Shown piece by piece: positions 313 to 18,400 of a DNA stretch of 27,293 bases. A program made the position numbers and the translations under genes. Source of the DNA: a virus; IMG/VR virus record IMGVR_UViG_3300017788_000139, positions 1 to 27,293 of that record. One strand, 5' to 3'. The notes beneath the pieces are model-generated. The model ran no database searches and had not been told where the DNA came from. It was given only the letters and a program-made list of their open reading frames with translations. Each line of letters starts with the position of its first letter. Position 1 is the first letter of the stretch.

Positions 313-347
313 TTGCTTTTACTCCTTTGAGTTTTTGTGGTTTTAAT

Positions 348-355: not shown

Positions 356-359
356 ATTA

Positions 360-1490: not shown

Positions 1491-1532
1491 TTGAGATTCC
1501 TCGTAATACTTACTATATGTTTATTCTATGAT

Positions 1533-1540
1533 TATTTATC
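1533..1540 (-). promoter_or_regulatory. Late-promoter motif GATAAATA upstream of gp22
   Basis: Minus-strand GATAAATA lies 42 nt upstream of the gp22 start codon, in the 52-bp gap after gp21. A second near match, TTATAAATG, overlaps the gp21 stop. It fits the single-element late promoter pattern, but no -35 is expected, so the evidence is motif plus position only. Confidence 0.45.
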
Positions 1541-1542
1541 AT

Positions 1543-2187
1543 TTATAAATTTTGTAAGAAGTGGTTAAAAGCTTTTAACGACCTCTCTTCAATATTTTTT
1601 CTGGTTGATTCAGAAATATATCTGTGATATTTAGCAATATTAACCTCTTTAATAATGCCATTTTCCCAAACCCACTCTTTTCCTTCCATAATTCCATTCA
1701 CAAATGCGTCAGGTGCGGAGGGATCTGCTACAATATCAGCAGCAGTTGCGAGCATAAAATCATCACGAACATAATTGGCACCGTTCTTTTCTTCAATAGA
1801 ACCCATGCCTCTTGAAGAAACACCAAGTTTTACTCCTGATTCCAGAAGTGACTTAGCAATGCCTCCCATTGGTGTATTTAGAATCTGTGCCTTACCAATA
1901 AAATTGCTACCCTCTGCTTTAAGTGAAACAATTTTATGAGATACACGATCTAAGTTTACGGTAGTACCATCAGGATGTCCCAACCCACCGAGAGCACGAC
2001 CAGCAGAAACATACTGTTCATTGTATCTGCCAACTTCTCTTTCGAGAACGCTGTAAGGATATACTCTACCATTGCGATTTTTTAAATCAGCTTGAAGGAA
2101 TACACCTTCGATGTAGAGTAATTTTTTTCCGTTTGCTTCTTCTTCGAGGATTTGAATATCCTCAATACTCTCGGTAATTAGTTTCAT
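1543..2187 (-). CDS. gp21: Prohead core protein protease gp21
   Basis: This 214-aa protein is nearly the same length as T4 gp21 (212 aa). gp21 is the serine-type maturation protease that sits in the prohead core, cleaves gp22, gp67, gp23 and itself, and so makes room for DNA. Candidate catalytic residues are visible: His71 in GGLGHPDG, Ser124 or Ser125 in KLGVSSRGMG, and Asp152 or Asp156 in DIVADPSAPD. This pattern is typical of the herpesvirus-assemblin-like phage prohead proteases. The N-terminal NRNGRVYP segment (residues 37-44) is also a family hallmark. The start codon overlaps the gp67 stop as ATGA, so translation is probably coupled. The downstream gap to gp22 is about 52 bp. Confidence 0.92.
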   Translation of the reverse strand: MKLITESIEDIQILEEEANGKKLLYIEGVFLQADLKNRNGRVYPYSVLEREVGRYNEQYVSAGRALGGLGHPDGTTVNLDRVSHKIVSLKAEGSNFIGKAQILNTPMGGIAKSLLESGVKLGVSSRGMGSIEEKNGANYVRDDFMLATAADIVADPSAPDAFVNGIMEGKEWVWENGIIKEVNIAKYHRYISESTRKNIEERSLKAFNHFLQNL

Positions 2188-2384
2188 TGTTCTGATTCCT
2201 CTTCTGGTGTTTCTTCTACCTCCTCTTCGGGAGATTCTGGTTGATCAAAAAAAGTTTGAGCAACAACTTGCTTGTAATCTTTCATTGCTTCCGCTGCTTT
2301 TCCATAAAGGAGATCAGCGATTTTATCAAGTGCTTGAACTCGATTACCGTCACGGACGGCGTTAACTACTTCAAAAGTGTCCAT
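2184..2384 (-). CDS. gp67: Small acidic prohead core protein, gp67-like
   Basis: This 66-aa protein has a helical N-terminal half (VVNAVRDGNRVQALDKIADLL, continuing into KDYKQVVAQTFFDQ) and a strongly acidic tail (PEEEVEETPEEESEQ). T4 gp67 is 80 aa with the same layout: a short helical head followed by a Glu/Asp-rich tail. It also has the same position between portal gp20 and protease gp21. Such proteins fill the prohead core and are processed to internal peptides. T4 has a second small core gene, 68, here; none is visible in this phage. The gene ends in an ATGA overlap with gp21. The AATAAATA motif upstream overlaps the gp20 stop codon. The call rests on composition and synteny. Confidence 0.78.
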   Translation of the reverse strand: MDTFEVVNAVRDGNRVQALDKIADLLYGKAAEAMKDYKQVVAQTFFDQPESPEEEVEETPEEESEQ

Positions 2385-2404
2385 GTAATTTACCTATAAT
2401 AAAT

Positions 2405-2412
2405 TATTTATT
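2405..2412 (-). promoter_or_regulatory. Late-promoter motif AATAAATA overlapping the gp20 stop
   Basis: Minus-strand AATAAATA lies 20 nt upstream of the gp67 start and overlaps the TAA of gp20. It could start a gp67-gp21 transcript. The short distance and AT-rich context make it a weaker case than the intergenic examples. Confidence 0.4.
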
Positions 2413-4036
2413 TTTCTGATGTTTTAGGTTTAGGTGGTGCAGCAGGAGCTGGAGGTGGTGGAGGTAATGCTCCAACTTCCAAAGTTGCTGCATTCATTAG
2501 ATTTGTGTGGATAGGATCAGGAATTTTGCCTTCCGCAATTTCTGCTTCCATTTGCTTCGTAATTTCATCGTACTCGGCATCTGTTTGCATAAGAACTTGC
2601 TTTCTTACATACTCAATTGAGTAATACTTTCCGAGGAAAGGATCGAGAGCAGTAGCAACTTGTAAGCGGTTGCCCATAAGTTCTGCTTGCTTGAGTTCTT
2701 CGAAATGATTATCGAATTGATAGTCATATTGAATATGCTCTTGCATCTCTTCCCAATCTTCTGGCGCAATAACACCTTTTAGAATGAGTTGAGTTTTCAG
2801 AATGTCGTGGAATAATGCGCTGAATTTTTTACGAATCCTTGCAATAAATTTCGCAAACTTAAGTTCATCACGAAGAATCTCGGATGAACGACCAAGCGAA
2901 AATCCTTGGTTTGCATCATCTAAACGTGATGGTGGGAGATTAAGTGAGTTGTAAAGTTTCTTTTTAAAATACTCAACGTCTTTGAGTTCGCCTAAGTTTT
3001 GACCGCCAGGTAGAGTTGTGATTTCTGTTCCTCTGCCACCTTCACGTCTTGGGAGCCAGAAATCCTCAAGCATACTCATATGTTTTTTATCATCACGAAT
3101 CTCACCTGTCTGTGCGTCGTAAACAAGCTTGTTTCTATAACGTGCCATTACCTCTCTGAGGTATTGCTCTGCCTTTACCTTAGGAAGATTACCTACATCG
3201 ATGTAGAAGATTCTTCTTTCTGGAGCACGAGACAAACGATAGATAACCAGCGCATCTTCAATCATGCGAAGCTGGTTAAGTGATTTGATTGCCTTGTGTA
3301 GGAAACTCAAGACCATTTTTTTGTTGAGGTCTTGAATACTTGAAGTTACATAAGTGATTGCGTCGTTTGCAATCTTGACGCCGCTGGTTGCATTGTTAAC
3401 GTCAAAGGTTGAACTGATGAATCCCTTAGGATTGTACATGTAATATTCAACAAAATTTCCAAAATCATATGCAAGTGCATTTGAAGGGTCTGCAGTATTA
3501 GCAGATAACACTTGCGCTAATTTTGGATCTTTGTTTTGAATTCTAACTTTTTTAATTTTAAGCGGATCTACATATCTGAGCTCTGTGATTCCTGCTCTTG
3601 GATTTGCGAGATCTACAACTTTGTGGTAGTATATACGACCATCGATATACCACGTTCTAAAAATTTCGTGCGCCCTTGTATCAAACTTTAACAAACGAAG
3701 AATGTATTGAAACTCTTCACGAATTTTTTTCTTAATTGATTCACTTACTTCCAGATTTGATAATTCAATCTGAACAGGTGTATCATCTAAACTTGCGTTG
3801 ATTGCCTCATTTACAATCTCGTCAATAGCAGAGTCAACTTCTGGATGCATTGACATATCACGATAGCGTTTGATGAGATCAAACTCGTTTCTTGCTACAC
3901 CATCGATATCTACATACGAACCAAAATAACCACCAGCTACGGTGGTTACTGCGTCATCCGCTGAAGGAGGAATTGGGGATTGCCCCTTCAATTCCTCCTG
4001 TTTGCTCTTAATTGAAAATCCAAAAAGTTGACTCAT
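2408..4036 (-). CDS. gp20: Portal vertex protein gp20
   Basis: At 542 aa it is close to T4 gp20 (524 aa). gp20 forms the dodecameric portal at one capsid vertex, nucleates prohead assembly, passes DNA during packaging by gp17 and joins the neck (gp13/gp14). Recognisable segments include FDLIKRYRDMSMHPEVDSAI near the N-terminus, RAPERRIFYIDVGNLPK, MARYRNKLVYDAQTGEI and MLEDFWLPRREGGRGTEI. The last three are diagnostic of T4-like portals and lie in the region widely used as the g20 diversity marker of cyanophages. The C-terminus ends in a Pro/Ala-rich tail (PPPPPAPAAPPKPKT), common in this lineage. The gene sits between tube gp19 and core gp67, as in T4. An ACTAAATA motif lies upstream of its start. 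Confidence 0.97.
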   Translation of the reverse strand: MSQLFGFSIKSKQEELKGQSPIPPSADDAVTTVAGGYFGSYVDIDGVARNEFDLIKRYRDMSMHPEVDSAIDEIVNEAINASLDDTPVQIELSNLEVSESIKKKIREEFQYILRLLKFDTRAHEIFRTWYIDGRIYYHKVVDLANPRAGITELRYVDPLKIKKVRIQNKDPKLAQVLSANTADPSNALAYDFGNFVEYYMYNPKGFISSTFDVNNATSGVKIANDAITYVTSSIQDLNKKMVLSFLHKAIKSLNQLRMIEDALVIYRLSRAPERRIFYIDVGNLPKVKAEQYLREVMARYRNKLVYDAQTGEIRDDKKHMSMLEDFWLPRREGGRGTEITTLPGGQNLGELKDVEYFKKKLYNSLNLPPSRLDDANQGFSLGRSSEILRDELKFAKFIARIRKKFSALFHDILKTQLILKGVIAPEDWEEMQEHIQYDYQFDNHFEELKQAELMGNRLQVATALDPFLGKYYSIEYVRKQVLMQTDAEYDEITKQMEAEIAEGKIPDPIHTNLMNAATLEVGALPPPPPAPAAPPKPKTSEK

Positions 4037-4062
4037 GTTTTAATTGTTTCACTTACTTTAAT

Positions 4063-4070
4063 TATTTAGT
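4063..4070 (-). promoter_or_regulatory. Late-promoter-like motif ACTAAATA upstream of gp20
   Basis: Minus-strand ACTAAATA lies 26 nt upstream of the gp20 start in the 39-bp gp19-gp20 gap. CTAAATA is, from memory, a variant late-promoter core reported in marine T4-like phages. Evidence is motif and position only. Confidence 0.4.
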
Positions 4071-4075
4071 AAAGA

Positions 4076-4681
4076 TCATTTAATGACGCCTGGTGATCTA
4101 CCTGTGCCATCTGGATCAACGGACCAATACTGGAGTTGGAATTCTACAGTGAAATCTTCAATTTGATCATTGCTATCATAAGCAAGATCAATTTGAGAAA
4201 TATTAGTAGGGAAGCAACCCCATAGTTTATATGCTCTGATGAAAGTAGAATCGGCAGTTTCGTTAGCTCTTTCAAGTTGCTTGACTGTGAGATCAGCAGT
4301 ATAACCAGCGGAATTGTTTGGAACAATTACGTCTGCAGTGTTTGCTTCGTGAGCATTGATTGCTTGCATCCAACGCTCCATGAAATGACGGATTTTGAAA
4401 TCTTTGTCATTAATGAAAGTTGCTGTCCAAGTATCGAATGTTCTATCTCCAGCAATTTTTACGGTTCTTCCTCTGAAGGGAACTTCAATAACACCTAAGT
4501 TAGATGCTGGAAGAGCAGCTGATTTGCATAGAATATTTACCAACTCTGCATTTGTGTCTGAAGAACTTGGTAAACCTAATCCTGATGTAGCAGGAAATTT
4601 GATATCAACAACGAATAGGTTAGGTCTTACACCTTGTTGAATAACTTGTAAAAAGTCCTTTACATTACTTTTGATTGCCAT
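4076..4681 (-). CDS. gp19: Tail tube protein gp19
   Basis: The 201-aa protein is the tail tube subunit, whose stacked hexamers form the channel inside the contractile sheath through which DNA is ejected. Family signatures include FRGRTVKIAGDRTFDTWTAT and the following DFKIRHFMERWMQAIN, then LWGCFPTNISQIDLAYDSND and the C-terminal TVEFQLQYWSVD. T4 gp19 is 163 aa; cyanophage versions are somewhat longer. It follows sheath gene 18 by 35 bp with a GAGG ribosome site and no late-promoter motif between them, so it is probably translated from the gp18 transcript. No anomalies were seen. Confidence 0.95.
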   Translation of the reverse strand: MAIKSNVKDFLQVIQQGVRPNLFVVDIKFPATSGLGLPSSSDTNAELVNILCKSAALPASNLGVIEVPFRGRTVKIAGDRTFDTWTATFINDKDFKIRHFMERWMQAINAHEANTADVIVPNNSAGYTADLTVKQLERANETADSTFIRAYKLWGCFPTNISQIDLAYDSNDQIEDFTVEFQLQYWSVDPDGTGRSPGVIK

Positions 4682-4716
4682 CTGTTTTTACCTCGTGAAT
4701 AGTTTTTGAAATAATA

Positions 4717-6336
4717 TCAACCGTTGCCTCTAATTACTTCTGCAAACTCTACTCCAGAACGTGTAGCGATAAAAGTAACTGTGATGTAGTTAATTGAACG
4801 TGTTGGTTTGATGTAAATTTCAGCAACAAATTCATTTCTATCAATAACATCTGGTGTATTATTTGAAGTATCGCAAACTACGAGATAATCAACAAGTCCT
4901 CTCTTTGCTTGCACTTCGGAGAGATAAGAAACTGCTGACGAGTAAAAAGCGGTTCTTGTAGTTTCATCATTCAACTCAAACATAACAGTTTTAGCGAGTT
5001 GACCAATTCTCTTTTCAACCGCAAGAAATAAACGACGAACGTTGATGCGATCAAATGCACTTGGAGTTGCAAGAGCTGTCTTGTCTCCAAAAAGAACTGT
5101 TCCCTGACCAGGGAATGTAGCGATTGGATTTACTCTCTTTAGATAGAGTTTGTCTCTATCTGTTTGTGAAGGAGAATAAGAGAGTTTTACAACATTCTTA
5201 AGGTTACCTCTATTAAGACCAGCAGGTGAGAACCAATCTTCTTGAGTAGCAGATACCTGTACACAGAGACCAGCAACATCACCGCAGCAAGGAATGTAAC
5301 GATAAGTGTCGTTATACTTATCGTAAATATACTTATATCCACTATCAAAAACTGAATATGAATTACTGGTTCCTACAGCATCAAAGAAAGTGATGATATC
5401 ATCTCTCTTTGCTGAAGAACTTGAGAGAGCTAACATTCCAGAATGAGGAGAAACGAAAGCAATACAATCTTTTCTTGAAGTTGCAATAGCAATTGCTTTT
5501 TGTGCTTTGGTTACTTGATCTGCTTCGGTAGCTAAGCTACCACCCGCAAGAACAAAGCTAATTTCAATTTCGTCCACATTATCGAAAAGATCAAAAGCAG
5601 CAGTAATAGTTGATACAGTGGTTGAATATGCATCAACACCAAGAGCAAGAGTTACATCTGATTCTCCAGCTGCAGGATTTTCTGGACCAGCGTAGATATA
5701 TTTTGATGTATTATTAATAACAGTTTTAAAATAAGTTGACGCACCTTGAGCATCTTTAGCAGTAGATACTCTTGAAACATATAGGAATGTTTCTAAAATA
5801 TTATTGTTTGCATCTAAAACAGCGATATGGAGATCGTCTGCTCCACCTGGATCATTTGCAATTGTGCTCCAAAGAACTGAACCGTAGATTGTGGCAGTTG
5901 CGTATGTCGTGACGCCGCCATCTACAATTGCAATTTTTAATCCGTTTGCCCATGTACCTGCAGTTCTTGCTGCAAACTTCCAATCATATGTGCTAAAGTT
6001 AGCATTAAAATCATCTAATGATTTAATTGCTACTGCTGTTGCTGATGCATCATCAACAGCATTCTTGAGTGCTGCGTCTGCTACACGAACAACTTTTAAT
6101 CTTCCGCCATATGAAAGAAAAGTTTGAGCTACAAACCAATCTTCGTAATTACTATTATTTGGTGCGCCGAAAGTTTCTAAGAGTTCTCTCTCAGTGGAAA
6201 TATCTACAATAGTTCCAATTGGACCTTTTGCAAAACTGCCAACTAATGCGGCGGAATTTGCTTGAGCAGTAACAATGGTTTGTGTAGTTAAATCACTTTC
6301 TCTTAGAACAATTCCAGGTGATACTTGACCTGCCAT
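4717..6336 (-). CDS. gp18: Contractile tail sheath protein gp18
   Basis: The 539-aa sheath subunit polymerises around the gp19 tube and contracts to drive it through the host envelope. The N-terminus (SPGIVLRESDLTTQTIV) and C-terminus (AEIYIKPTRSINYITVTFIA, followed by TRSGVEFAEVI) are characteristic of T4-like sheath proteins. Those ends carry the beta-strands that mesh neighbouring subunits. It is shorter than T4 gp18 (659 aa). The variable, surface-exposed middle (about residues 90-270) is probably where the length difference lies. A strong ribosome site, GAGGAG, precedes the start, and AATAAATA lies 39 nt upstream. It is co-directional with gp19. Confidence 0.95.
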   Translation of the reverse strand: MAGQVSPGIVLRESDLTTQTIVTAQANSAALVGSFAKGPIGTIVDISTERELLETFGAPNNSNYEDWFVAQTFLSYGGRLKVVRVADAALKNAVDDASATAVAIKSLDDFNANFSTYDWKFAARTAGTWANGLKIAIVDGGVTTYATATIYGSVLWSTIANDPGGADDLHIAVLDANNNILETFLYVSRVSTAKDAQGASTYFKTVINNTSKYIYAGPENPAAGESDVTLALGVDAYSTTVSTITAAFDLFDNVDEIEISFVLAGGSLATEADQVTKAQKAIAIATSRKDCIAFVSPHSGMLALSSSSAKRDDIITFFDAVGTSNSYSVFDSGYKYIYDKYNDTYRYIPCCGDVAGLCVQVSATQEDWFSPAGLNRGNLKNVVKLSYSPSQTDRDKLYLKRVNPIATFPGQGTVLFGDKTALATPSAFDRINVRRLFLAVEKRIGQLAKTVMFELNDETTRTAFYSSAVSYLSEVQAKRGLVDYLVVCDTSNNTPDVIDRNEFVAEIYIKPTRSINYITVTFIATRSGVEFAEVIRGNG

Positions 6337-6375
6337 GTTTTTCTCCTCGTGAAGTAGTTCATTTTAATCTAAAAG

Positions 6376-6383
6376 TATTTATT
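6376..6383 (-). promoter_or_regulatory. Late-promoter motif AATAAATA upstream of gp18
   Basis: Minus-strand AATAAATA sits 39 nt upstream of the gp18 start in an 85-bp gap after the small zinc-finger gene. This is one of the better cases because the gap is otherwise non-coding and the downstream product is needed in large amounts. Confidence 0.5.
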
Positions 6384-6421
6384 ATTTTGAGTATTTCAAA
6401 TGGGGAAACCGTGCATGAACA

Positions 6422-6655
6422 TTACCAATCTGGATATTCCCATGAAGACGTAGATACTTTTTTCTGTTTACGTTTATTTTTAATTCTTTTAATAGTGCAA
6501 TCCTTGCATTCATAAGAATATGCTGAGGGGAGATATTTCTTTGTTCTACGAATGGCATAAAAATCCGTCATCAAATCTTTAGTTTCGCCACACACCCTAC
6601 ATTGTCTGTCACGAAATAATAAATGTTCTAAAGAAATCTGATCTTCTAAATCCAT
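6422..6655 (-). CDS. Small basic protein with two CxxC zinc-finger pairs, downstream of gp17
   Basis: The 77-aa product starts MDLEDQISLEHLLFRDRQC. I chose the ATG at 6653-6655, whose A is shared with the gp17 TAA (TAATG). The frame is open a further 60 bases upstream, but that part lies wholly inside gp17 and has no separate support. Cys19-x2-Cys22 and Cys50-x2-Cys53 frame a segment TDFYAIRRTKKYLPSAYSYE, followed by a very basic helix (IKRIKNKRKQKK) and the tail SSWEYPDW. The layout resembles the N-terminal zinc region of phage endonuclease VII-like and HNH-type proteins, but no His-Asn-His catalytic region is present. It is probably a small DNA- or RNA-binding protein. In T4, genes 17 and 18 are adjacent, so this is extra. 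Function is unknown. Confidence 0.72.
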   Translation of the reverse strand: MDLEDQISLEHLLFRDRQCRVCGETKDLMTDFYAIRRTKKYLPSAYSYECKDCTIKRIKNKRKQKKVSTSSWEYPDW

Positions 6656-8316
6656 TATCTTCCCAACATATATTCTACATCTGCATAAGGATTTCCGTAT
6701 CCATCGGTGTACCAAATATTCCCATCTTCGTCTACAAATTTTTCTTCTATATCACTGATTCCATCAGATAAAAATCCAAAGGGAGCCATGTCTTGCTCAA
6801 TTTGATTTTTCTGTTCTTCGTAGATTCTCTTACGAACATCATTGTCTGTCATTTCCCTGAAATAGGGTTGAACTGCCAGCCATGCAAATAACACCAGACA
6901 CATTACAAGGTCATCATTATATCCATCGTCTGCTTCAAATGATTGATTCTTTTGAATAAACGTTGTCAACTCACTGATAATTTCATAATCAGATACTAAC
7001 AACTTATCATCCTCAATCAATGTCTTGAGGTTTGAGCATCCAACTTTCTTAGTCACCTTAGACATCTTCAGACCAAGTTGAGATTTAGTTCCAGAGAATC
7101 CCTGTCCTACAATCTGACCTGCTCTACCTCTCATTGCACACATTAGAATATTTGGATACTCTAAGTCGTAGTGTAGAATGTTTGTTACTTGCTCGCCAAT
7201 ATCATTCACTTCTGCAAGTATATAGCATTTATTATAATTTTTCGCAACTTGCTCAATAATGTTAGGGAACAAAATTGGTTTGATTTCATTGTTTCGATAC
7301 TTAGCAACTACCTTCCAAGGTAGAGTGGTAATATCAAATACAACAAAAGCAGAGTAATCATTATTAGTTCCACGGGATACGTCAACTGTCATGATGTAAT
7401 CATGGTCTTTTATTACTTCTTCGTAAACAGACAATCCTTTGTTAGTATGCAATGGGTCATCATAAACCATGGAGCGCAGCTTAGACGCCGTGATAAGAGT
7501 ATCAACCGAACCTAAGAACTCGCATTCGAACTCCTGCGTGAACTGCCTCTCCGAGGTGTTTCTAATGGTCTCTTCCTTCCATTTAGCATCTCTGCCAGGA
7601 ACTTGACTCCAATGCACTTCCAAGGGCACGTAGCCGTTCTTCCCACGCTCTGCGTCATGCCATAGCTTATAGAACATATTCATACCCTGTGGGGTAGAAA
7701 TAATAATCACCTTTGTTTTCTTACCAGACGAGATGGTAGGATATACAGAGGAGAAGAACTGCTCTGCAATATGGTTTGGAACGAACGCAAACTCGTCAAG
7801 GAAGATGATGTTGAAAGAGTTACCTCGAACAGCGGATGATGAAGTAGATGCTGCTATAATCTTAGAACCATTATCCAGTTCCATCGAACCTTTGTTCCAT
7901 GCTATAATACCTTGCTGCATCCACTTCGGTAGATTCTCATATGCCAACTGCAAACGTGATAGAAGTTCTCTTGATGTTTCTGCTTTGTTTGCAAGAATAG
8001 CAATCTTGGTGTTGTCGTTGAAGACAGCATAATGCAACAGATAGGAAATAACCGTTGTCGATTTTCCTGTCTGTCTTGGAAGTTTGGCGATATTGAATCT
8101 GTGATTATGAAAATTTTCAATAAGTTTCTCTTGGAAATCATACATTTCAAAAGGAATAAGACCTTCATCCAGTGAGATAATCTTTACATAGTTTCTTGCA
8201 AAGTAAACTGGGTCATCTTTGCATCTAATAAACTCTTCAACTTGTTTCTTCGTAAAGTTAATAGCGGTGTTCGCTTTCTTTAGATTAGGATTACCAAGAT
8301 ATACTGCGTCACTCAT
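6655..8316 (-). CDS. gp17: Terminase large subunit gp17 (packaging ATPase-nuclease)
   Basis: The 553-aa motor protein cuts concatemeric DNA and pumps it into the prohead through gp20. The N-terminal ATPase has Walker A RQTGKST (residues 81-87), Walker B IIFLDEFAF (170-178) and the coupling motif STPQG (207-211). The C-terminal RNase H-like nuclease carries Asp312 in MTVDVSRG, Glu369 in ILAEVND and Asp468/Asp469 in GYNDDL, matching the acidic triad of T4 gp17 (D401, E458, D542). T4 gp17 is 610 aa. The start overlaps the end of the 77-aa zinc-ribbon gene by 8 bases, so both are probably translated together. The nearest recognisable promoter is the sigma70-like element at 8568-8596, not a late motif. 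All key residues are present. Confidence 0.97.
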   Translation of the reverse strand: MSDAVYLGNPNLKKANTAINFTKKQVEEFIRCKDDPVYFARNYVKIISLDEGLIPFEMYDFQEKLIENFHNHRFNIAKLPRQTGKSTTVISYLLHYAVFNDNTKIAILANKAETSRELLSRLQLAYENLPKWMQQGIIAWNKGSMELDNGSKIIAASTSSSAVRGNSFNIIFLDEFAFVPNHIAEQFFSSVYPTISSGKKTKVIIISTPQGMNMFYKLWHDAERGKNGYVPLEVHWSQVPGRDAKWKEETIRNTSERQFTQEFECEFLGSVDTLITASKLRSMVYDDPLHTNKGLSVYEEVIKDHDYIMTVDVSRGTNNDYSAFVVFDITTLPWKVVAKYRNNEIKPILFPNIIEQVAKNYNKCYILAEVNDIGEQVTNILHYDLEYPNILMCAMRGRAGQIVGQGFSGTKSQLGLKMSKVTKKVGCSNLKTLIEDDKLLVSDYEIISELTTFIQKNQSFEADDGYNDDLVMCLVLFAWLAVQPYFREMTDNDVRKRIYEEQKNQIEQDMAPFGFLSDGISDIEEKFVDEDGNIWYTDGYGNPYADVEYMLGR

Positions 8317-8542
8317 TTAATTTTCTCAAATCTCTTTCTATATTTTCCATACTATTTAACCTTCTTTCCCAACCATCGCCTTTGGTTGTTCCTTTCGCTG
8401 GATTGATGCAAGTGTCGTCACTTATTCTGTCACACACCAAGCTAGCGAGTTGAGTTTCATCACCTTTTTTATTTGTGCCAGACCAGAAATGCTGCCCACC
8501 AATCCAGCACGCCCCGCATTTGGGGCAGGTTTTTGTTTGCAT
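8309..8542 (-). CDS. Small zinc-ribbon protein upstream of gp17
   Basis: The 77-aa product begins MQTKTCPKCGACWIGGQHFW. Cys6, Cys9 and Cys12 plus His18, Cys37 and Cys45 could form one or two zinc sites. The C-terminal third is a charged helix (WERRLNSMENIERDLRKL). I recall similar short CPKC...WIGGQH proteins in marine T4-like phages, but no function is known. Its last 8 bases overlap gp17, which suggests co-translation with the terminase and perhaps a role in packaging or its control. It lies directly behind a strong sigma70-type promoter. No convincing Shine-Dalgarno is seen in the about 20-nt leader (TAGTTTAATCCT before ATG), which is unusual here. Confidence 0.75.
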   Translation of the reverse strand: MQTKTCPKCGACWIGGQHFWSGTNKKGDETQLASLVCDRISDDTCINPAKGTTKGDGWERRLNSMENIERDLRKLNE

Positions 8543-8567
8543 AGGATTAAACTAAGATAGCAGTATT

Positions 8568-8596
8568 ACTATATATTACAAAAAAATGTTTGTCAA
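8568..8596 (-). promoter_or_regulatory. Sigma70-type promoter upstream of zinc-ribbon gene and gp17
   Basis: On the minus strand TTGACA (8591-8596) is followed by exactly 17 nt and TATAGT (8568-8573). The -35 is a perfect consensus and the -10 matches TATAAT at five of six positions. Expected transcription start is near 8561, leaving a leader of about 20 nt before the ATG at 8542. The element lies in the short gap between the 173-aa gene and the 77-aa gene. It would be read by the primary host sigma factor, unlike the late motifs around it. Confidence 0.72.
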
Positions 8597-8606
8597 GTAA
8601 CAAATG

Positions 8607-9128
8607 TCAGCAATTCCAAGCTCTTAATGATTTAGATAGACGGTCTTCGCCAGTGTTATTGCTATCTTTTTGTCTCTTACGCATACCTTTCATTCTGGCG
8701 CAGAAGCTCTTCCTGCGGGGATTTCCAACCTTTTTTGAAGGTGCCTTAAGGTCGCTTCCAGGATTCTCACGTTCGTAGGATTTGCGTCCTTTTTCGTTGA
8801 GTCCTCCATTAGAATTCTTACCCGATTTTTTTGTCCAGGCAGCTCCTTCTTGCATTTCAAACTCTTCATTGGTGCTTGACATATAATCAGCAGCAGTATC
8901 AATGTAATCGCAAGCAAGAGTGACTTTAGATTGCACCCAACCAGGGAGTTGCGTCTTAGGGTCTCTTACTACCAAACGAAGACGATTAACTGCATCTTCG
9001 ATAGTATCAAGTTGACTCATCACCATGCCACCTTCATCATCAATCTCTTTACCCATGGCAACTGCGATATGATTTTCTGCTTGCTGCGTTGCGTTTGCTG
9101 CTTCTCTGATTTCTTTAAAAGTTTTCAT
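8607..9128 (-). CDS. Two-domain protein of unknown function between gp16 and gp17
   Basis: The 173-aa protein appears to have two parts. Residues 1-88 are helical and include DDEGGMVMSQLDTIEDAVNR and a segment TQLPGWVQSKVT followed by DYIDTAADYM. I recall this pattern recurring in many small proteins of marine T4-like phages. Residues 97-173 are basic and include GGLNEKGRKSYERENPGSDL, NPRRKSFCARMKGM and the end LSKSLRAWNC. This resembles the widespread DUF6321-type phage and bacterial domain (identification from memory). The start overlaps the preceding stop as ATGA, without a clear Shine-Dalgarno, so translation is probably coupled. The position inside the terminase operon hints at a packaging or DNA-binding role, which is inference. 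No catalytic motif was identified. Confidence 0.75.
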   Translation of the reverse strand: MKTFKEIREAANATQQAENHIAVAMGKEIDDEGGMVMSQLDTIEDAVNRLRLVVRDPKTQLPGWVQSKVTLACDYIDTAADYMSSTNEEFEMQEGAAWTKKSGKNSNGGLNEKGRKSYERENPGSDLKAPSKKVGNPRRKSFCARMKGMRKRQKDSNNTGEDRLSKSLRAWNC

Positions 9129-9400
9129 GATTGATATGAAACTGCCACTGCTCTTATGTCATTGTTTGCAGCATAGATTTTTTGAGTGGGTAGTTTTCTG
9201 ATTACTAAAGATTCACTTGGAGTCATACTAAAAGTTGCTACCGTTGTTGGTGATGCTGCTCCATCAGTGATTGATACGAGGTGTGTTGTATTTCCTCCAG
9301 CATCGTGAACTAAACGAACTTCTACTGCTTCACCAACAGTAGTTGCTCCATTTGCTGTAGTTGGAAGTGCTACTTCCTGTCCTAAAATTTTTAATCTCAT
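9125..9400 (-). CDS. Small beta-rich protein, possible virion component
   Basis: The 91-aa protein begins MRLKILGQEVALPTTANGAT and is composed mainly of predicted beta-strands with Thr/Ala/Val-rich turns. It contains the segments VRLVHDAGGNTTHLV and SESLVIRKLPTQKIYAANND. Similar small beta-sandwich-like proteins occur next to terminase genes in marine T4-like phages and are usually labelled hypothetical or structural; that is recollection rather than a search. The gene begins 20 bp after gp16, has a GATAAATA motif overlapping the gp16 stop, and ends in an ATGA overlap with the 173-aa gene. Function is unknown; a decoration or neck protein is plausible. Confidence 0.7.
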   Translation of the reverse strand: MRLKILGQEVALPTTANGATTVGEAVEVRLVHDAGGNTTHLVSITDGAASPTTVATFSMTPSESLVIRKLPTQKIYAANNDIRAVAVSYQS

Positions 9401-9420
9401 AATTACTTACCGTTTATTTT

Positions 9421-9834
9421 CTATTTATCCTTTGCTGCATCTTTAATCATCTTTTGAAGGTCTGCCGTTGTGCCAATAAACATTGTATTATTGACTGTAG
9501 TTGGAGATGATTTTTTATTTTCTTTGCCAAGATCCTTCATCTTATGCTGAAGGTCTATAAGCTTGTCAGTCATGTCTGAGACCTGCTTCATAGCGTTCAC
9601 AGCGACCTCATACGCTCTGGGGTGTCCAGATTCTTGTGCCACCTCTAACGCTCCCTGAACCGCTTCCTGACCCTGTGAGATGAGCCTGTATAACTCTCCT
9701 CTGGTATATTCGTAATCTTTAGTGGCATCAACAGATACTTCACTATTTGCTTGTGTAATCATTTCAGTAGTTTTTTCTATAGGTGCAATATCAATATCAA
9801 AGATTTCTTCCATGTTCTTTTCAAACTCGTTCAT
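9421..9834 (-). CDS. gp16: Terminase small subunit gp16
   Basis: The 137-aa protein recognises viral DNA and stimulates the ATPase and nuclease of gp17 as a ring. The core YTRGELYRLISQGQEAVQGA continues into an antiparallel helical pair (HPRAYEVAVNAMKQVSDMTD, then KLIDLQHKMKDLG), typical of T4-like small terminases. The acidic N-terminus (EKNMEEIFDIDIAP) and the C-terminal NNTMFIGTTADLQKMIKDA are also conserved in the group. T4 gp16 is 164 aa. It overlaps the gp15 stop as ATGA. In T4 it adjoins gp17; here three small genes (91, 173 and 77 aa) separate them. Confidence 0.92.
   Translation of the reverse strand: MNEFEKNMEEIFDIDIAPIEKTTEMITQANSEVSVDATKDYEYTRGELYRLISQGQEAVQGALEVAQESGHPRAYEVAVNAMKQVSDMTDKLIDLQHKMKDLGKENKKSSPTTVNNTMFIGTTADLQKMIKDAAKDK
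9422..9429 (-). promoter_or_regulatory. Late-promoter motif GATAAATA at the gp16 stop
   Basis: Minus-strand GATAAATA overlaps the gp16 TAG and lies 21 nt upstream of the 91-aa start. It could start a separate late transcript for the small genes between gp16 and gp17. Confidence is limited because part of the motif is coding sequence. Confidence 0.35.
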
Positions 9835-10631
9835 AGTAGTGTAATACCTTCATTAAATCCAAAGTCATCATCTGGCATGAGTAGAGCATCATCGTTTGCA
9901 TCAACATCATTATCTGCATCTTGATCAGTAAGTGCTCTTGGAGTGACATCAATTTTAAGATTTCTGCGATGCTGGTTATAATCACCAAGAGTTTCATATA
10001 CTGTAGCTTTGCGAATAATTGCTGCATCACTGACAGGTCCATAAAGATATGTTTTTAAAATAAAATCTAAAGTATATGTAATACTTCTCCTTCTCAACAT
10101 ATCATCTTCATAATCATCTTCATAAGAAATACCATTTAAAATAATTGGCAAATCTTTTTTCTCATCCATCTCTGGAATGAGATTAATTGTGACGTTGAAA
10201 GATGGTTGGAAGTATGGTAAAATCTGTTCAAGAATCTGTAGAGCATCATCTTGATTTCTGGAAAGAATACCTAATTCAAAACGAAGATTATAAGGCACAG
10301 GCATGTACTGAACCTTGACACTATTATTATCGTCTTTCTTTAAATACTTTTGAATTGGTGATGTCTTTCTGGCAGCATCATATGTAATGTCAGTCATCTC
10401 AAATGAGATACGTGGCATCGTAATATTAACTTTGCGTTCTGTGCTTGGGTCTTGATCGAGGCGAGCAAGAAACTTACTCTTAGGTCCATAAGCAAGAGCT
10501 ACTTTCTCTTGACGAATTACAGCACCTGTTTCTGGATCTTTCTTTTCAATTTGAATGTTGTTGAAAAGAGTGCCAAATGCCTTTACATTTTTTTTAATTA
10601 TCTCGTGATAATAATGACGATTGCCTAACAT
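9831..10631 (-). CDS. gp15: Tail sheath stabiliser / completion protein gp15
   Basis: The 266-aa protein is close in length to T4 gp15 (272 aa), the hexameric ring that caps the sheath and tube and joins tail to head. Typical segments are LGNRHYYHEIIKKNVKAFGT near the N-terminus, RISFEMTDITYDAARK, PYNLRFELGILSRNQDDALQ, and RRSITYTLDFILKTYLYGPV. It starts in a TAATG overlap with gp14 and ends in an ATGA overlap with gp16, so the gp13-gp16 block is probably translated in a coupled way. The C-terminus is acidic (DQDADNDVDANDD). No anomaly is seen. Confidence 0.94.
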   Translation of the reverse strand: MLGNRHYYHEIIKKNVKAFGTLFNNIQIEKKDPETGAVIRQEKVALAYGPKSKFLARLDQDPSTERKVNITMPRISFEMTDITYDAARKTSPIQKYLKKDDNNSVKVQYMPVPYNLRFELGILSRNQDDALQILEQILPYFQPSFNVTINLIPEMDEKKDLPIILNGISYEDDYEDDMLRRRSITYTLDFILKTYLYGPVSDAAIIRKATVYETLGDYNQHRRNLKIDVTPRALTDQDADNDVDANDDALLMPDDDFGFNEGITLL

Positions 10632-11536
10632 TAGAATGAACCTCCCATATTTCCATATTCACCAAATGGATTCTTTTCTGTAAAATCAAGAATAGGATCA
10701 GCAGATGTTTCATAGTATTTGTTGCTGTCGTTATCGTAATTATCGATATCGAAGTCAATTGTAGAGAAATTATCTACTACCCACGAAGCACCACCATCTT
10801 GACCCACCAAAGGTAAATTGGGTTGTAATACACCATTTATATATGTCAACCTCAACTTGCGTGTCGATGGACTCCAATCAGCAACTGTTGCTTTTGTAAT
10901 TACGGGAGTACCTCCAACAGGTGTATAGGTTTGTCTTACTTCTTCGCCAATAATATAAGCACCAGTTCCCCCAGTTTTCATATACACTGGGAATACATGT
11001 GCGTCCTGAGTAAGAGTGTCAATTTCTGTATTGCCAGTGTCAAAATAATTATTTGCATTTTGAATAAGTTCACATGTCATGGAAAAAATATAATTTTTTC
11101 CTAACTGATAGAAAGGAACTTCTCTTTCTACATATTTAATTTCATATAAATTTTTAGTCATTGGAACATAAATTAGATCACCTTCGTTTGGTACATTAGG
11201 AATTCTCGTATCAATTTGAGTTTCTACATAGTCAATCCAACGTCTTTTAGACACCGCATAAGTAATTTCATCACTTAAAGTGAGACCAAATTTAGACATT
11301 GCGACAGAACTTGATCCGCCAAATCCTTCAACATTAATCAGCATCATTTCTATAAGAACACTATCTTCATATTTTTGAAGAATCACATCATTTATAGTTG
11401 AATCAATTAACATTGTTTTTGGCACATAATAAACATCCTGACCAAACAGCTTAATCTGTTCGTCTATAAGATTTTGAACTAAAGTTTGTTCCGAAGTTCT
11501 TCCACCATACTGGGGAAAGTATTGACTCTTTGCCAT
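10631..11536 (-). CDS. gp14: Neck protein gp14
   Basis: The 301-aa protein (T4 gp14 is 256 aa) forms part of the neck complex with gp13 that seals the packaged head and provides the tail docking site. Conserved stretches include QTLVQNLIDEQIKLFGQDVY, YVPKTMLIDSTINDVI, RRWIDYVETQIDTRIPN and the segment KYVEREVPFYQLGKNYIFSM. A central insert (about residues 170-250, including YTPVGGTPVITKATVADWSP) probably explains the extra length. The C-terminus NPFGEYGNMGGSF is typical. The gene shares single-base TAATG junctions with gp13 upstream and gp15 downstream. Confidence 0.94.
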   Translation of the reverse strand: MAKSQYFPQYGGRTSEQTLVQNLIDEQIKLFGQDVYYVPKTMLIDSTINDVILQKYEDSVLIEMMLINVEGFGGSSSVAMSKFGLTLSDEITYAVSKRRWIDYVETQIDTRIPNVPNEGDLIYVPMTKNLYEIKYVEREVPFYQLGKNYIFSMTCELIQNANNYFDTGNTEIDTLTQDAHVFPVYMKTGGTGAYIIGEEVRQTYTPVGGTPVITKATVADWSPSTRKLRLTYINGVLQPNLPLVGQDGGASWVVDNFSTIDFDIDNYDNDSNKYYETSADPILDFTEKNPFGEYGNMGGSF

Positions 11537-12348
11537 TATCCGATCATATCTAAAGGTGGTAGTTCATAATCAGTTAACATCTTAGATTCAATATCTTCCA
11601 GTTCTCTAAGAGCATCTTCATAAATCTGACGCCCGTTTAATTGAACGCCACCAGGCAATTGAACGTTATTGAATTTGATGAGGTTCTGACCCCATTGACG
11701 CTTGAATAGAGCAGTGGTGTATCTCTTTAACCAGAAGTCATTCCAGATTTTTGTGAGGTTTGTTGGATCAAGTGCTCGATAACATTCTATAATTAAAATC
11801 TTATCCTTTGTCAACATCTGGGGATCATAGTCGATGTAGAGACGACCATCTCTTTTTGTGAATCTGAAACGAATCAAAGCACCAGTATTCAAAACCATAT
11901 CAAGAGTTTCGATGTAGCTCTTGACCATGTAGTAGTTTAGAATATCAATCGAACCAAAAGCATACAAGTCATTTAAGAAGATTTGATATTCAATACCAAA
12001 CAGATCACCACGAATGCTACTCGAAGTTACACCGAATACTTTTTCCACGCCAATAATATGATCAGGCAAATCCAGATAGTTGCCACGTTCAGTCCATACA
12101 TCACCTTCTGAAGATGGATGTGTAATATTGTTACTCTTAAATCTATCTACTTCTGTTTGAGTTAATGTATGTTTAAGATACATTTTATCCATTCCGTCAA
12201 AATGACGTTCTTGGAAAAATTGTAATGCTTCATCTATTCTATCTTCCAGTTGTTGATTATCAACGTTGATTTCAAGAACAGGTGAACCAAGTTGACGCAA
12301 ACAGTAATCTTTTAATTCTGTTCGTGTTGCTGGTTTTGACGCCGACAT
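11536..12348 (-). CDS. gp13: Neck protein gp13
   Basis: The 270-aa protein is the other neck (head completion) protein and works with gp14. Recognisable segments include TRTELKDYCLRQLGSPVLEI at the N-terminus, QLEDRIDEALQFFQERHFDG, GIEYQIFLNDLYAFGSIDIL, FTKRDGRLYIDYD and the segment WNDFWLKRYTTALFKRQWGQ. T4 gp13 is 309 aa. It is the first gene after the terminator at 12385-12409, has TATAAATA 29 nt upstream of the start and an AGGA ribosome site, and begins the 13-14-15-16 run of overlapping genes. This is the cleanest promoter-gene pair in the window. Confidence 0.95.
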   Translation of the reverse strand: MSASKPATRTELKDYCLRQLGSPVLEINVDNQQLEDRIDEALQFFQERHFDGMDKMYLKHTLTQTEVDRFKSNNITHPSSEGDVWTERGNYLDLPDHIIGVEKVFGVTSSSIRGDLFGIEYQIFLNDLYAFGSIDILNYYMVKSYIETLDMVLNTGALIRFRFTKRDGRLYIDYDPQMLTKDKILIIECYRALDPTNLTKIWNDFWLKRYTTALFKRQWGQNLIKFNNVQLPGGVQLNGRQIYEDALRELEDIESKMLTDYELPPLDMIG

Positions 12349-12360
12349 TTACCAGTCCTA

Positions 12361-12368
12361 TATTTATT
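12361..12368 (-). promoter_or_regulatory. Second AATAAATA motif close to gp13
   Basis: Minus-strand AATAAATA lies only 12 nt from the gp13 start. If used, it would leave almost no leader and no room for the AGGA ribosome site, so it is probably either inactive or a chance AT-rich match beside the better-placed TATAAATA. Confidence 0.2.
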
Positions 12369-12377
12369 TCCTAAAGA

Positions 12378-12385
12378 TATTTATA
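12378..12385 (-). promoter_or_regulatory. Consensus late promoter TATAAATA upstream of gp13
   Basis: Exact T4 late-promoter consensus on the minus strand, 29 nt upstream of the gp13 start and directly abutting the T-run of the preceding terminator. It would restart transcription for the neck, terminase and tail genes. Confidence 0.65.
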
Positions 12386-12409
12386 AAAAAAGAGGGGGTT
12401 GCCCCCCTC
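12385..12409 (-). terminator. Rho-independent terminator after the giant structural gene
   Basis: On the minus strand GAGGGGG - GCAA - CCCCCTC (12392-12409) forms a perfect 7-bp GC-rich stem with a GNRA tetraloop, followed by seven T (12385-12391). It begins 21 nt after the stop of the 2614-aa gene. The opposite strand has no T-run after the stem, so it works only for leftward transcription. Confidence 0.92.
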
Positions 12410-12430
12410 CAAAAATATGTAGGAAATGAA

Positions 12431-15400
12431 TCAGGCTTGTGATTCAGTCCAAGTGAGTCGTGCAGTAACTTGGGTTTGACCGAAGTTAGAAGAAATTGTG
12501 GCAGGTACTGTTGTTGCAACTGCAAGAGTTAGAACATCAGGACCATTTGGATATACATAGTCACCACCAAGGATGCTATTACCCATTTCAACAAGGTCTT
12601 CTAGCTGTTGAGCAATAGAAGCGCCAGCAGCAGCACGGAATTCAAAGATGGATATACCACCAGTGATTGTATCCGTTGCTTGACCCGTGTGCTTGATGAT
12701 TTGACATAGTGAAGGAGCACCGTAGTTAGTGAAGTATGCTGACTGGGATAGGTTGCCATTGAGAATTAGACGAATTGAAGTAGCGTCATTTCTTAGGGCA
12801 ACTTGTACTCCAGATGAGTTAACTTCTCTTGGTTGGCAAACAAGACCACAAGAATTCATCTTAAGAATCATTCTATTGATAAGATCTCTTTCGCCAAGAG
12901 GTCCAACAAGAGAACTAGCAACTGATGGTGCTAGGCGAATTGATAGAATTGGAACTGCAGTACCAGAAAGTATTCCAGGAACATTAACTGTATCAGAACC
13001 AACCGAACCAGAAGCAACCGTAAAGAGGTATGCCTTGTCATCCTCAAACTTACCATCCATGATTACCGAAGCACCCCAGTGATAAAGTGATGGAGCATAG
13101 GTTGGGGTGTCGCCATTTATAATTTCGTAACGAGCAGGTAGGTTACCTGAGCGGAGATACGCTTCATTTTCGTGGTTGTTGTGGACAAACTCGTGAACAT
13201 AAGTCACGATACCGTCTTGATCTTTGAATCCAAAACGAACCTTACCAGCACCATACCAGGAGTAATCCATGTATGCCATTTGCTGACGGTGAATGTCGAG
13301 CTTGAATCCAGTTACGCCATTTCCATCACACTTGTCGATATTCCACTGAGATTGTGGAACTTTGAGATCTCTAACTTTTGACATAATAATTTTTGATCTT
13401 GTCGTTCCTCTATATGATGGTGAAATATGAATAGAAGTGTCCGAATCAACTGCAGTGACTTTATAAGTCATACCACGAATCGCAATATGATCACCAATTA
13501 CTAATTGCTTAGTAAATTTAGTGCCAGTTCCTACGATAGCATTACTCTTAAATGCACAAGTTACTGTTCCTGCCATTTGAGCAGTAGCGTTTCTTCTTAC
13601 ACAATAGAGATTTTGTCCATCATACTCGAAGAACATACCATTTTGATCATCATACATACCTGCACGAACTGCAGCATCTTGCCATTCATAAACAAATAGT
13701 GCGGGGAATCCAGCTGGGGATATATCAGAAGGAATGCCGTTAGTTGCGTAACGGAATGTGAATTCATCAATAACATTATTTACAGTGAAGAACTGTCCGT
13801 TAGATGGTGTGGTGTATGGTGAAGCAACACCAGATGTTACTTCTACATCCTCGATGATGATTTTATTACCAGCAACAAGTTTGTGTGGTTTTCTAGTTAC
13901 TACTGTAGCAAACTGAGTTCCATCGTGGCTGATGCTAGAAACATCAATTGAAGGACTGAAGTTAATACCAGTCGAATACTGAAGACCCTTACCTGACTGA
14001 TAACGGAAGTATCTTCTAGTTTGTCTTACAATATTAACACCAGGAGCTTGAGCAGCAGAAATTTCAACACCACCATCAAATGATCTATGTAGGTTCAAGC
14101 AATCGGGTCTTACGAACATTTGTGTTTCATAGATGAATGGAATTGCTTGAAGAATACCATCACGGATATTTGATGCGTTTTGGTTTAGATAATAGTTTGC
14201 GCTTCCGAGCACACCATCTGTAACGAGTGCTCCACCTGATTGATAACGAATGTATGAGCTTGAGCAATATGTAGCAGCAACTAGATAATGGTTAAACCCA
14301 GCACCAGTTGATGTAATGTCAATAAACTGGAATGTAAGAGCATTACTTAGTGAGTTAGCAAGACGAATTACATCATCATTAATCTTAATTACAAAGAATG
14401 TGCCACCTTCAGATAGACCACCGATAATATTACCAATACCAAAACCAGCAGAATAGTAAACCTTGACACCAGTGTTTAAACCATGGTTAGGAATATAAAA
14501 TTGGTCTCTTTCAACGGAAACAACTGGAGTTGCTAGGTTTGAAACAGTATTGAGAGTTGTTTGAGGATTGAAAATAATTTGACGAGATGGATATGGATCG
14601 GTAACGATCATATCTGATTCATTATTAATAGCAACTACTCCCATTTCAAACACAAAACCTTCTAATTTTTCAAATCTGTGTCTATCACCAGTTCCAGCAG
14701 CACCAGGAATCACTTGATCTACACCTGTGCCACTAGAACCACCGATAAATGCACCCGATGGGGAAGTATGAAGGGTAAATGTACTTGGTTCAATAACATT
14801 TACATAATATATGGTATTATGTGTCATATTCGAATATGGTTGCTGCACTCTGTTAGCATCATTTACATATTGTGACCAACCACCATTTGTTCCTTGGTGC
14901 GCTCCACCTGCAGCATCTAATTTATAAATCAATGCATCGCCAGTCGATAAACCATGATTACTAATTGTAAAGATACCAGTAACTGTATTAGCTGCGGTTG
15001 TTCCAGAGAAAATTAAAGTTTTAACTGGCATTTGACCAGATAATTTAACCGTATCTCCTCCTCTATATTGAGATAAGAATTTAGTTGCATACGATGGCAA
15101 TGGTGGAAGAAGCATCCAGTTAAGGTTTGCAAATCCATCACTATCTCTTACTGGTTGTTGGTTAGTATTTGCAACAAATGTAGTTGATCCAGGAGGAGTA
15201 GCACCAGCAACCGACATATAGTAACTATTTCTGAATAGTACTACATCTCCATACACATAACTATCGGATGAGTTCCAATCACCTTTGAATGTTGTTCCCC
15301 TGAGTGATGGGTTAGTAACTTTAAATTGGTGAAGTGTACTAGTACCAACTCCAAGAATGTCAACAATATCAGTGTTTGTGTAAGCACCAACCCAAGTATT

Positions 15401-18400
15401 ATGTAGTGAGAATTGGTTAGCGGATTGACCAGATTGAGCACCACCACGAGTAGTGACTGTGTTTATTGAGTTATTGACAAAATATTGTCTCCCAGAAACT
15501 AGACCATTGATTTGTCTGCCATTACCCCATACCTGATAGATTACTCTATCACCAGTAGTAAAACCATGACCATTCGATACAAATCTATCAGAAGCAGCCA
15601 GCACAGCAGCAGCAGAAGATCCATTTATAATAATATCTCTAGCAACAATTGTTGCAAGACCATTACCCAAAGATTCTCCAGTTACTTGTGAAGTAGTTAA
15701 ACTGTGTCCTGAGTTAGTAGTTCCAGTTGTCGAATAATTTTGAATTGCTCTGCCAGCAAGAGCATCTTCTTTAGTGTATGCAAGTTGATACATATCGAGA
15801 TTTCTTCTAATCGCATAATATGTTCCAGCAACAAATGCAGTTCCAGCGGGAGACCCACCAGTAGTTGTATTATTTACCGTAACTGAAGAAACTGTAGAAG
15901 AAACAACTTTAAATGTTCCATTATAACCATTATCGGTGGAACCACCAACGGTTACTCCAGAAACTGTAATAGTTTGATTTGGAACGATATCAAATGGAGA
16001 AGCAGGTAAAGTTGCAAAACTGTAAGTTACTTGAGCACCTGTTGAGGTAATATTTGTAATTTGTAAATCATATAATGCATTATATCCTTGGCGTGGATGA
16101 GTAGTTCCAGATGATCTTCCAATCGAAAAACTATTGCCATTTCTAGAATAAACAACTCTAGTTCCAGTAGTTAATCCATGATTTTGGTAGTAGAATGATC
16201 CTGTTTGCAAATCTACATTCTTTGCTGGATCAAAAAGGATGGATCTTACAGGAATATTTGTTCCTGGATCAAATGTAACTTTGTAATCAGATACAGAAGA
16301 AGCATCATACCCACCATCAATTGTTCCTGTTGATGAAACATTAATTAGATTATGAACTCCAGTTGCAGCAGAAGCAAGAGGAACAGAATCGTAATATTGC
16401 ACAAACGTCCAAGTACCACCAGAACCAGCAGTAGTGATATCAATTGGGAATCCAGCAAAAGCAGCAGCTCTTGAATGTGCTAGTTGGAAGTTATTTGCAT
16501 CAACTGGAATTGCATAGTAAATTTGAGCATTAGGTGGTTGAGAAGCACCACCAGTGGGCCAGCTAGCGGGGCCAAGAATAGTGTTGTTAATTACACCACC
16601 AGTTGCATAACCAGAAATAGCAACAGATTCACCAATTCTTAAACCATGATTAGCTATATTCCATTGATCAGTAGTTGTGTTTGCACCTGTGTTAGCAACG
16701 GAAATAGATCTAGGGATTGCACTATCTCTAACCTGTAATTGGAAACTTCCATTTACTCTATAAAGTGTAACTTCTGCAGGAATTGGTTGAGCAGTTGTTC
16801 CACCGTATCCTCTAATTACAGTAATTTTATTATTAGATACTGCAGTGACAAGCATTCTTTCATTTAAATATGTGCCAGTCCATAGAGTATTTCCTGGGAC
16901 AATAGCTCCTGTAATAGTAGTGTTTAAAGTTAAAACAGTAGCATCAGAATCATGAACGATTGTAGTGAAAAATCCAGTAGATAGAGGAGAAAAATCACTT
17001 ACATTTCTTACATTATATAAATTACCATTTACTAATCCAGGAGCGTTTGGATAAGCACTACCTACTTCGGAACTACCTGTTGATTCGTAACGAACAACAT
17101 CTGCTTCTACTAATTTTTGATTTTCGATAGGGAGGAAAATTCTATTTCCATTAGCATTAGCAACAGTTGAATTCGCAAACTTCATACGAGTTGTTCCAAG
17201 TGGACCAGCCGTACCATCAGTTGCTTGAGCAGCAAAGGTTTGTGGGAATATTTGTTGTGTTGGTTGACCAGTTGGCAATACAGCAGTATTATAAAATTGA
17301 ACTTTAAATATATCATCAGTGATTGGCACCATGTAATAACGAGCTGAATTGGTTAAACCATTGAGTGTACCTGTAGGATGAGTCAAAATCATGTTGACTC
17401 TAGGCCAGTTAACGCCAGTAATGTCAGTTACATAATCAAATAAAGGTCCAGGGAATCCTGCAGTTGATGGGAAAACAGCTTGTTCATCACGAGTGCCATT
17501 AGTAAAGGAACCAGAAATACTATAAGTGGTTCTTTGACCAGTAATACCACCATGATTTGGCAAGAAGAAACTATTCGAGAATCTATTTTCGAAAATACGG
17601 CAACAGATAAAACGACCCGCACCGTTGGTTGAGTTACCAGTAAAGTGAACTGGTGAACCAGCTTCGGAAAGAGTGAGTGAAAATTCACAAGCAGATGAAA
17701 TTGGACCACTATTTACAAGAGTTCTTGCATAATATTTTTGATATTCTGTATATGTATTTGGAGTTTGTGTGACACCGCCTGGAAGAGCAGATCCAGTTCC
17801 ATTTTTTATAATAATTTCAGCATCTTCTGTCATATACGCAGGTAAGTTTGCGTATGAACCAATGACACGATCTCGACCGCCACCAGCACCTCCAGCAGCT
17901 GGTGAGAAACTACTAATAGCAAATCCTGGGTGCAGTTGATAAATTCCCCCAGCCCAAGTGTTAGCAGTAGAAAAATTGATAGTTGCTCCAGTCGCTGATC
18001 CAGAATAAGGACCAACTCCAGATATACTCTCTGCGTTCTTTAAAGAAATTTCGTCTTTGTTGATTACATCAGCATAATAAATTATCGATTGGTTGGCAGA
18101 TTCCACTGGTGCTGTAGCTCCTCCAGTCCAAGTATTACCACCGCCAACAAATATAATTGGAGTACCTAACGACAAACCGTGGTTTTTGATGAAAATTCTA
18201 TCGGAAGAAACACACTCACGGGTAAACATTTTACCTGTAATTGAACACCAATCGTGAACAGATATACGAGCATGATTCATCCAAGATGAAGCTCCATCAT
18301 GAACCTGAGCACGGACACCAGAACGGAATACTTTAATGGTAGCCGCACCAACTGTTCCGCCAAATACAACAGGAGTTACTGAAAGAACTGGGTTGGTTGA

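Follow-up and report, generated by a model that had tools for sequence, protein, structure and literature searches.

A predicted sigma70-type promoter that accompanies a small four-cysteine gene at the gp16-gp17 hot spot

Genes and promoter element between gp16 and gp17

The window analyzed here, DNA from a virus of cyanobacteria, is the whole stretch of 27,293 nucleotides (nt) that makes up positions 1 to 27,293 of the IMG/VR record IMGVR_UViG_3300017788_000139. On its minus strand, gp16 is followed by a 91-amino-acid (aa) gene, a 173-aa gene, a 64-nt gap, a gene for a small protein with four cysteines (here called the four-Cys gene), and gp17, downstream of which lie an endonuclease VII-like gene and then a 539-aa gene (Table 1). 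The four-Cys gene overlaps gp17 by 8 nt, and Cys 6, 9, 37, and 45 of its product are invariant in 27 aligned sequences. At an E value of 1e-5, the protein matched 439 annotated phage records, named Synechococcus phage, cyanophage, or Prochlorococcus phage. A Pfam search with it returned only DUF5701 (E value of 0.034, below its cut-off), the best hit of a PDB sequence search with the protein profile had an E value of 0.22, and the AlphaFold model was too poor for a fold search (mean pLDDT of 50.8). Rfam at gathering thresholds gave no matches in the window, and a tRNA search of the window found none. At 8511 to 8526, shortly past the start codon, the codons of a CPKCG motif make GCCCC-N6-GGGGC, and these codons recur in part of 21 relatives. 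Upstream of a gp13-like region, 12431 to 20275 on the minus strand is a single open frame of 2,614 aa.

Table 1. Features at and around the gap ahead of the four-Cys gene
Feature	Position	Strand	Remark
gp16, terminase small subunit	9421..9834	minus	phrog_445
ATAAATA, nearest late-type element upstream	9422..9428	minus	predicted function; could feed gp17 late
173-aa gene, C-terminal DUF6321, upstream of gap	8607..9128	minus	
64-nt gap: putative promoter and short leader without Shine-Dalgarno	8543..8606	minus	
GTTAC block adjoining -35	8597..8601	minus	GTnAC in relatives
-35 hexamer TTGACA	8591..8596	minus	window sequence; kept among relatives
-10 hexamer TATAGT	8568..8573	minus	window sequence; TATAAT in most relatives
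77-aa four-Cys (zinc-ribbon-like) gene	8309..8542	minus	phrog_484; T4-GC392 of marine phages
gp17, terminase large subunit	6655..8316	minus	Terminase_6N, Terminase_6C
77-aa endonuclease VII-like gene after gp17	6422..6655	minus	phrog_4723
ATAAATA, late-type, before 539-aa gene	6376..6382	minus	predicted function
539-aa gene in gp18 place	6336-4717	minus	gp18 by position only, as in S-PM2

A preliminary description of this DNA had reported a TTGACA-17 nt-TATAGT element in the gap, just upstream of a zinc-ribbon gene overlapping gp17. Read directly from the minus strand (8596 to 8568), both hexamers and the spacer are exactly as described, scoring 11 of 12 consensus positions, and the neighboring gene is the four-Cys gene, whose ATG lies 25 nt from the end of the -10 hexamer. 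The site has TTGACA and a TATAAT-like hexamer at a spacing within 16 to 18 nt, upstream of a gene; going by spacing, transcription would start near 8561. It is the only site of at least 11/12 with spacers of 16 to 18 nt in the whole 27,293-base window, and TTGACA-N16-18-TATAGT occurs exactly once in the whole virus record; widening the spacers to 15 to 19 nt adds two 11/12 sites, at 11814 (minus strand, spacer of 19) and 26070 (plus strand, spacer of 15).

The hexamer match alone is ordinary, because 60 dinucleotide shuffles of the window contained on average 1.7 sites of at least 11/12 (spacers of 16 to 18 nt), against 1 in the real sequence, and 46 of the 60 contained one or more. Nor were sites of at least 9/12 enriched (53 versus 61.6 expected, positions 1 to 20000, both strands). 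For the 64-nt gap alone, 74 of 20,000 shuffles yielded a site of at least 11/12. Mere coincidence in this AT-rich gap (23% G+C) would fit the number of strong sites in the window, but it is highly improbable in view of the conservation and the linkage to the four-Cys gene described below, which show how the status of a single consensus match can be decided even when such matches are no more numerous than expected by chance.

The heptamer ATAAATA was found 11 times in the window, 10 times on the minus strand, where 7 of the 10 copies lie at most 45 nt upstream of a listed open reading frame (ORF) start and 2 lie well inside ORFs; CTAAATA was found 4 times, 3 of them on the minus strand. These numbers are not above chance expectation (11 versus 9.7 and 4 versus 5.9, respectively). 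The earlier statement that every other promoter-like site in the leftward genes is late-type is thus broadly right as to strand but too sweeping, since weaker sigma70-like sites (9 to 10 of 12) also occur on the minus strand. A scan from 8300 to 9400 found neither heptamer, and no T4-like late promoter (NATAAATA or a close variant as its -10 element) was recognized at this place.

Upstream of the four-Cys start codon, the window has no Shine-Dalgarno match of at least 3 bases. Among 21 relatives, 12 have a 4-base match 6 to 9 nt before the ATG, 7 have only AAG, 1 has AAGGA very close to the ATG, and 1 (L063) has none. The lack of a Shine-Dalgarno sequence that had been noted earlier thus applies to the window and to L063 and is no family trait; weak translation of the four-Cys gene is plausible for the window, because its leader lacks such a sequence. 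The window leader does not fold. In the freshwater relatives, a leader hairpin TTACC-N7-GGTAA was rejected as a conserved RNA, since the sequence is kept without covariation: in 25 freshwater leaders (23 distinct), a compensatory test gave 1 compensatory cell, with 110 of 500 shuffles as high, and the covariation score was reached by 487 of 500 shuffles. A short perfect hairpin, GTATC-N5-GATAC, lies at a like place in syn9, S-RIM8, S-RIM2, S-BM1, and ACG-2014d (L135, L137, L139, L142, and L148), where it ends a few bases upstream of the start codon of the gene that precedes the four-Cys gene.

Conservation and linkage to the four-Cys gene

For the comparison with relatives, we took the best 80 of 86 IMG/VR loci encoding relatives of the four-Cys protein; L007, L050, and L053 were left out since they had too little upstream sequence. 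Together with the window, this gave 78 sequences with at least 60 nt upstream, 53 of them distinct, and conservation was measured by the highest-scoring site within the final 67 nt upstream. The best score was 12 in 19 distinct sequences, 11 in 19, 10 in 3, and 9 or lower in 12, such that 41 of 53 reached at least 10/12, and 38 of 53 at least 11/12. Control rates were 5.0% (Markov sequences) and 1.5% (stretches drawn at random from the same loci) at the threshold of 10/12, and 0.5% and 0.07%, respectively, at 11/12. The spacer was 16 nt in 33 of the 41 good sites and 17 nt in 8. An alignment of representatives was anchored on TATA[AG]T, without L043 and without the 4 of 35 representatives that lack TATA[AG]T there (L062, L067, L075, and L077); its TATA[AG]T core is conserved by construction because of that anchoring. 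In the remaining 31 representatives, a GTnAC block abutting the -35 hexamer and T/A flanks of the -10 hexamer are conserved, the -35 hexamer is less so, and the middle of the spacer is near random.

The expectation in the preliminary description that relatives would keep the hexamers around a variable spacer was thus borne out, and on that basis we regard the prediction of a real sigma70-type promoter as well supported. The element is also present where the upstream gene differs (L010, L012, L023, and L024). Loss of hexamers with the flanking genes kept, which the same description had set down as counterevidence, was seen for the -35 hexamer of L044 to L046, L049, L068 to L072, L074, and L075; L062, L067, and L077 have no clear site. 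In L069 to L072, L074, and L075, CTAAATA extends into the -10 region, which gives the impression of a takeover by a late-type element.

The window copy might be a relic, descended from a working island promoter and idle in this lineage. Its TATAGT in place of TATAAT, its spacer of 17 rather than 16 nt, and the loss of the Shine-Dalgarno sequence in the window and L063 would fit such decay. We consider this very unlikely, however, as TTGACA is exact, 17 nt is the commonest spacer among the strong sites of DSL-LC02, and the window's form (17 nt and TATAGT) is shared by L040, L041, L056, L058, L059, and L064.

To separate the four-Cys gene from gp17 as the partner of the promoter, 119 nonredundant gp17 loci were compared, from up to 176 candidates; loci were dropped if they had less than 450 nt upstream, no gp17 start, or more than half of their 15-mers in common with an earlier row. 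Loci "without" the four-Cys gene are those with no tblastn match at an E value of 1e-3 within 320 nt, a definition that could overlook a highly divergent copy. Sites scoring at least 11/12 were present at most 450 nt upstream of gp17 in 35 of the 56 loci that have the four-Cys gene (and absent in 21), compared with 0 of the 63 that lack it (Fisher's P = 8e-16, which overstates independence because the contigs are related). For sites of at least 10/12, a few of which lie outside the expected place, the counts were 39 of 56 and 5 of 63. Within 110 nt upstream of gp17, no site of at least 10/12 was found in 72 loci without the four-Cys gene. The promoter hence follows the four-Cys gene and not gp17. 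Of the preliminary proposal that unmodified host polymerase reads the terminase from this site, the predicted sigma70-type promoter stands and host use is plausible, but its conserved client is not the terminase but the four-Cys gene; early transcription of gp17 would come about by cotranscription.

These counts also bear on the possibility that the promoter is kept chiefly for early gp17, early terminase being useful in itself and the four-Cys protein being a partner of gp17. The two genes overlap or nearly touch, with at most 60 nt between them in 69 of 77 loci; 5 are farther apart, 4 of which rest on a misplaced start (L057, L060, L061, and L065), and 3 have no assigned distance. The four-Cys gene also directly precedes gp17 in the marine phages S-PM2, S-RSM4, S-WAM2, and Syn1. 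Against this stand the absence of the promoter from all 63 gp17 loci lacking the four-Cys gene and the position of the latter far from gp17 in S-N03, S-CAM7, P-SSM3, and S-SCSM1, and we judge this explanation unlikely.

DSL-LC02 is an isolate with a Synechococcus host that has the same gene pair and a promoter with a 16-nt spacer. With its late block delimited by hand from the annotation, 16 of 174 non-late genes, including gp32, mazG, gp55, thyX, and a high-light-inducible (hli) gene, have a site scoring at least 11/12 within 130 nt, compared with 1 of 52 late-block genes, and that one is the four-Cys gene. The window site is of the same class as those before gp32, mazG, and gp55. Its distribution in DSL-LC02 and the linkage at the gp17 loci together suggest that the promoter resembles the phage's own early/middle class and is linked with the four-Cys gene. 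Unlike early cyanophage promoters, and unlike 16 of the 17 DSL-LC02 sites, it sits inside the late block of head and tail genes, beside the terminase, and it has the GTnAC block, which was found at no other promoter-like place in the sequences G001 to G003.

The four-Cys gene in marine phages

The hot spot that separates gp16 from gp17 has been described before, as the hyperplastic region of Millard et al. 2009 (cited in PMC3037559). Of 442 records with the four-Cys gene (T4-GC392), we inspected the region upstream of it in 16 marine phages. A small gene lies ahead of T4-GC392, namely GC836 in S-PM2, Syn1, and S-WAM2 and GC918 in S-BM1, and T4-GC392 itself precedes host-like metabolic genes in syn9, S-RIM8, S-RIM2, S-BM1, ACG-2014d, and S-8S55, in sets of petE, PTOX, gnd, and zwf that vary by phage. 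Upstream of it, 5 of the 16 phages (syn9, S-RIM2, S-RIM8, S-BM1, and ACG-2014d) have GTA[AG]CT-21 nt-TATAAT/TATACT with a mostly degraded -35 hexamer, 4 (S-RSM4, S-WAM2, Syn1, and S-PM2) have TATAAT without a good -35 hexamer, and nothing comparable was found in the other 7, so the link between the freshwater and the marine promoters is only partial.

Since TAAATA lies within the marine versions and those of L069 to L075, late or mixed control is possible there. Extended to the window, this would mean a mixed or constitutive promoter, used by the host polymerase throughout infection or by the late polymerase as well, with early timing not set. Such mixed use has a counterpart in the psbA promoter of S-PM2 (described in part of PMC5931967), in which published sigma70 hexamers of a cyanophage gene, like those of the window, are accompanied by a Gp55 late site overlapping the -10 hexamer, and would accord with the CTAAATA in the -10 region of L069 to L072, L074, and L075 and with TAAATAGT in the spacer of five marine phages. 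The window gap, in contrast, contains neither ATAAATA nor CTAAATA and has no such overlapping site, and mixed use of its promoter appears quite unlikely.

The window shares the genome place and the head gene with the island-bearing phages but differs from them in having no host-like metabolic gene between the four-Cys gene and gp17. It looks like a reduced form, consisting of the putative promoter and the head gene without cargo, and we infer that the cargo was lost here rather than gained in the marine phages.

A proposed early or middle promoter at the island entry

We propose, with a probability of about 65%, that the element is an early/middle promoter of the host sigma70 type that belongs to the four-Cys gene (phrog_484, T4-GC392) at the gp16-gp17 insertion hot spot of T4-like cyanophages, with gp17 cotranscribed. 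Host RNA polymerase with the principal sigma factor would start near the predicted position and produce a single message with a short leader, the four-Cys gene, and gp17, the last being read as well because it overlaps the four-Cys gene. Late gp17 mRNA would be supplied by the late-type element at 9422 to 9428, and the gene in the gp18 place would have its own (6376 to 6382). The four-Cys gene would be all that is left of the island, which places the promoter directly ahead of the terminase. According to the parts of PMC2984593 consulted, cyanomyoviruses are without homologues of alt, modA, modB, motA, and asi and lack the T4 proteins that act on the host polymerase or its sigma factor, and transcription of their early genes is attributed to host polymerase in its unmodified form; the early sigma70-like promoters of S-PM2 and Syn9 described there likewise have host-type hexamers in phages without T4-style polymerase modification genes. 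The lack of such polymerase-modifying proteins makes use of the window promoter by the host polymerase plausible. Middle expression is as likely as early expression, because the auxiliary metabolic genes of P-HM2 belong to the middle class (PMC5082946, in part).

A further-reaching version, which we hold to be doubtful, is that a conserved and possibly regulated entry promoter, with sigma70 hexamers fused to the operator-like GTnAC block, stays with the four-Cys gene while the cargo turns over, and that gp17 became early where the cargo is missing. The promoter class and the hot spot are already known. The promoter itself, the GTnAC block, and the linkage with the four-Cys gene instead of the terminase were absent from the portions of the open papers searched, and the main texts of PMC10976474, PMC5082946, PMC7238727, PMC6414667, and PMC5931967, as far as covered, held nothing on the timing of the four-Cys gene or gp17. 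The proposal thus supplies a concrete candidate promoter for the entry of a known cyanophage gene island and predicts that terminase mRNA could appear before other assembly transcripts where one small gene alone separates the promoter from gp17.

Two known arrangements were considered and rejected. PeSL cassettes of T4-like phages, as outlined in part of PMC4503421, combine an early promoter with an adjoining terminator-like stem-loop and, like the window site, have the promoter where a variable module borders on other genes; there is no terminator-like stem-loop on the minus strand at 8543 to 8606. NtcA-activated promoters carry GTA-N8-TAC upstream of the -10 hexamer (PMC3037559, in part), and the window has GTTAC with no matching TAC half. 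GTA-N9-TAC, which exceeds the NtcA box by one base, occurs in several relatives. Upstream of the four-Cys gene in L032, L076, L051, L014, and L068, and also in L146 (Syn1) and L140 (S-RIM14), this inverted repeat resembles an operator and overlaps the -35 hexamer or stands in its place, and in L076 it takes the form of a perfect GTAAC-N5-GTTAC, of which the window has the GTTAC half only.
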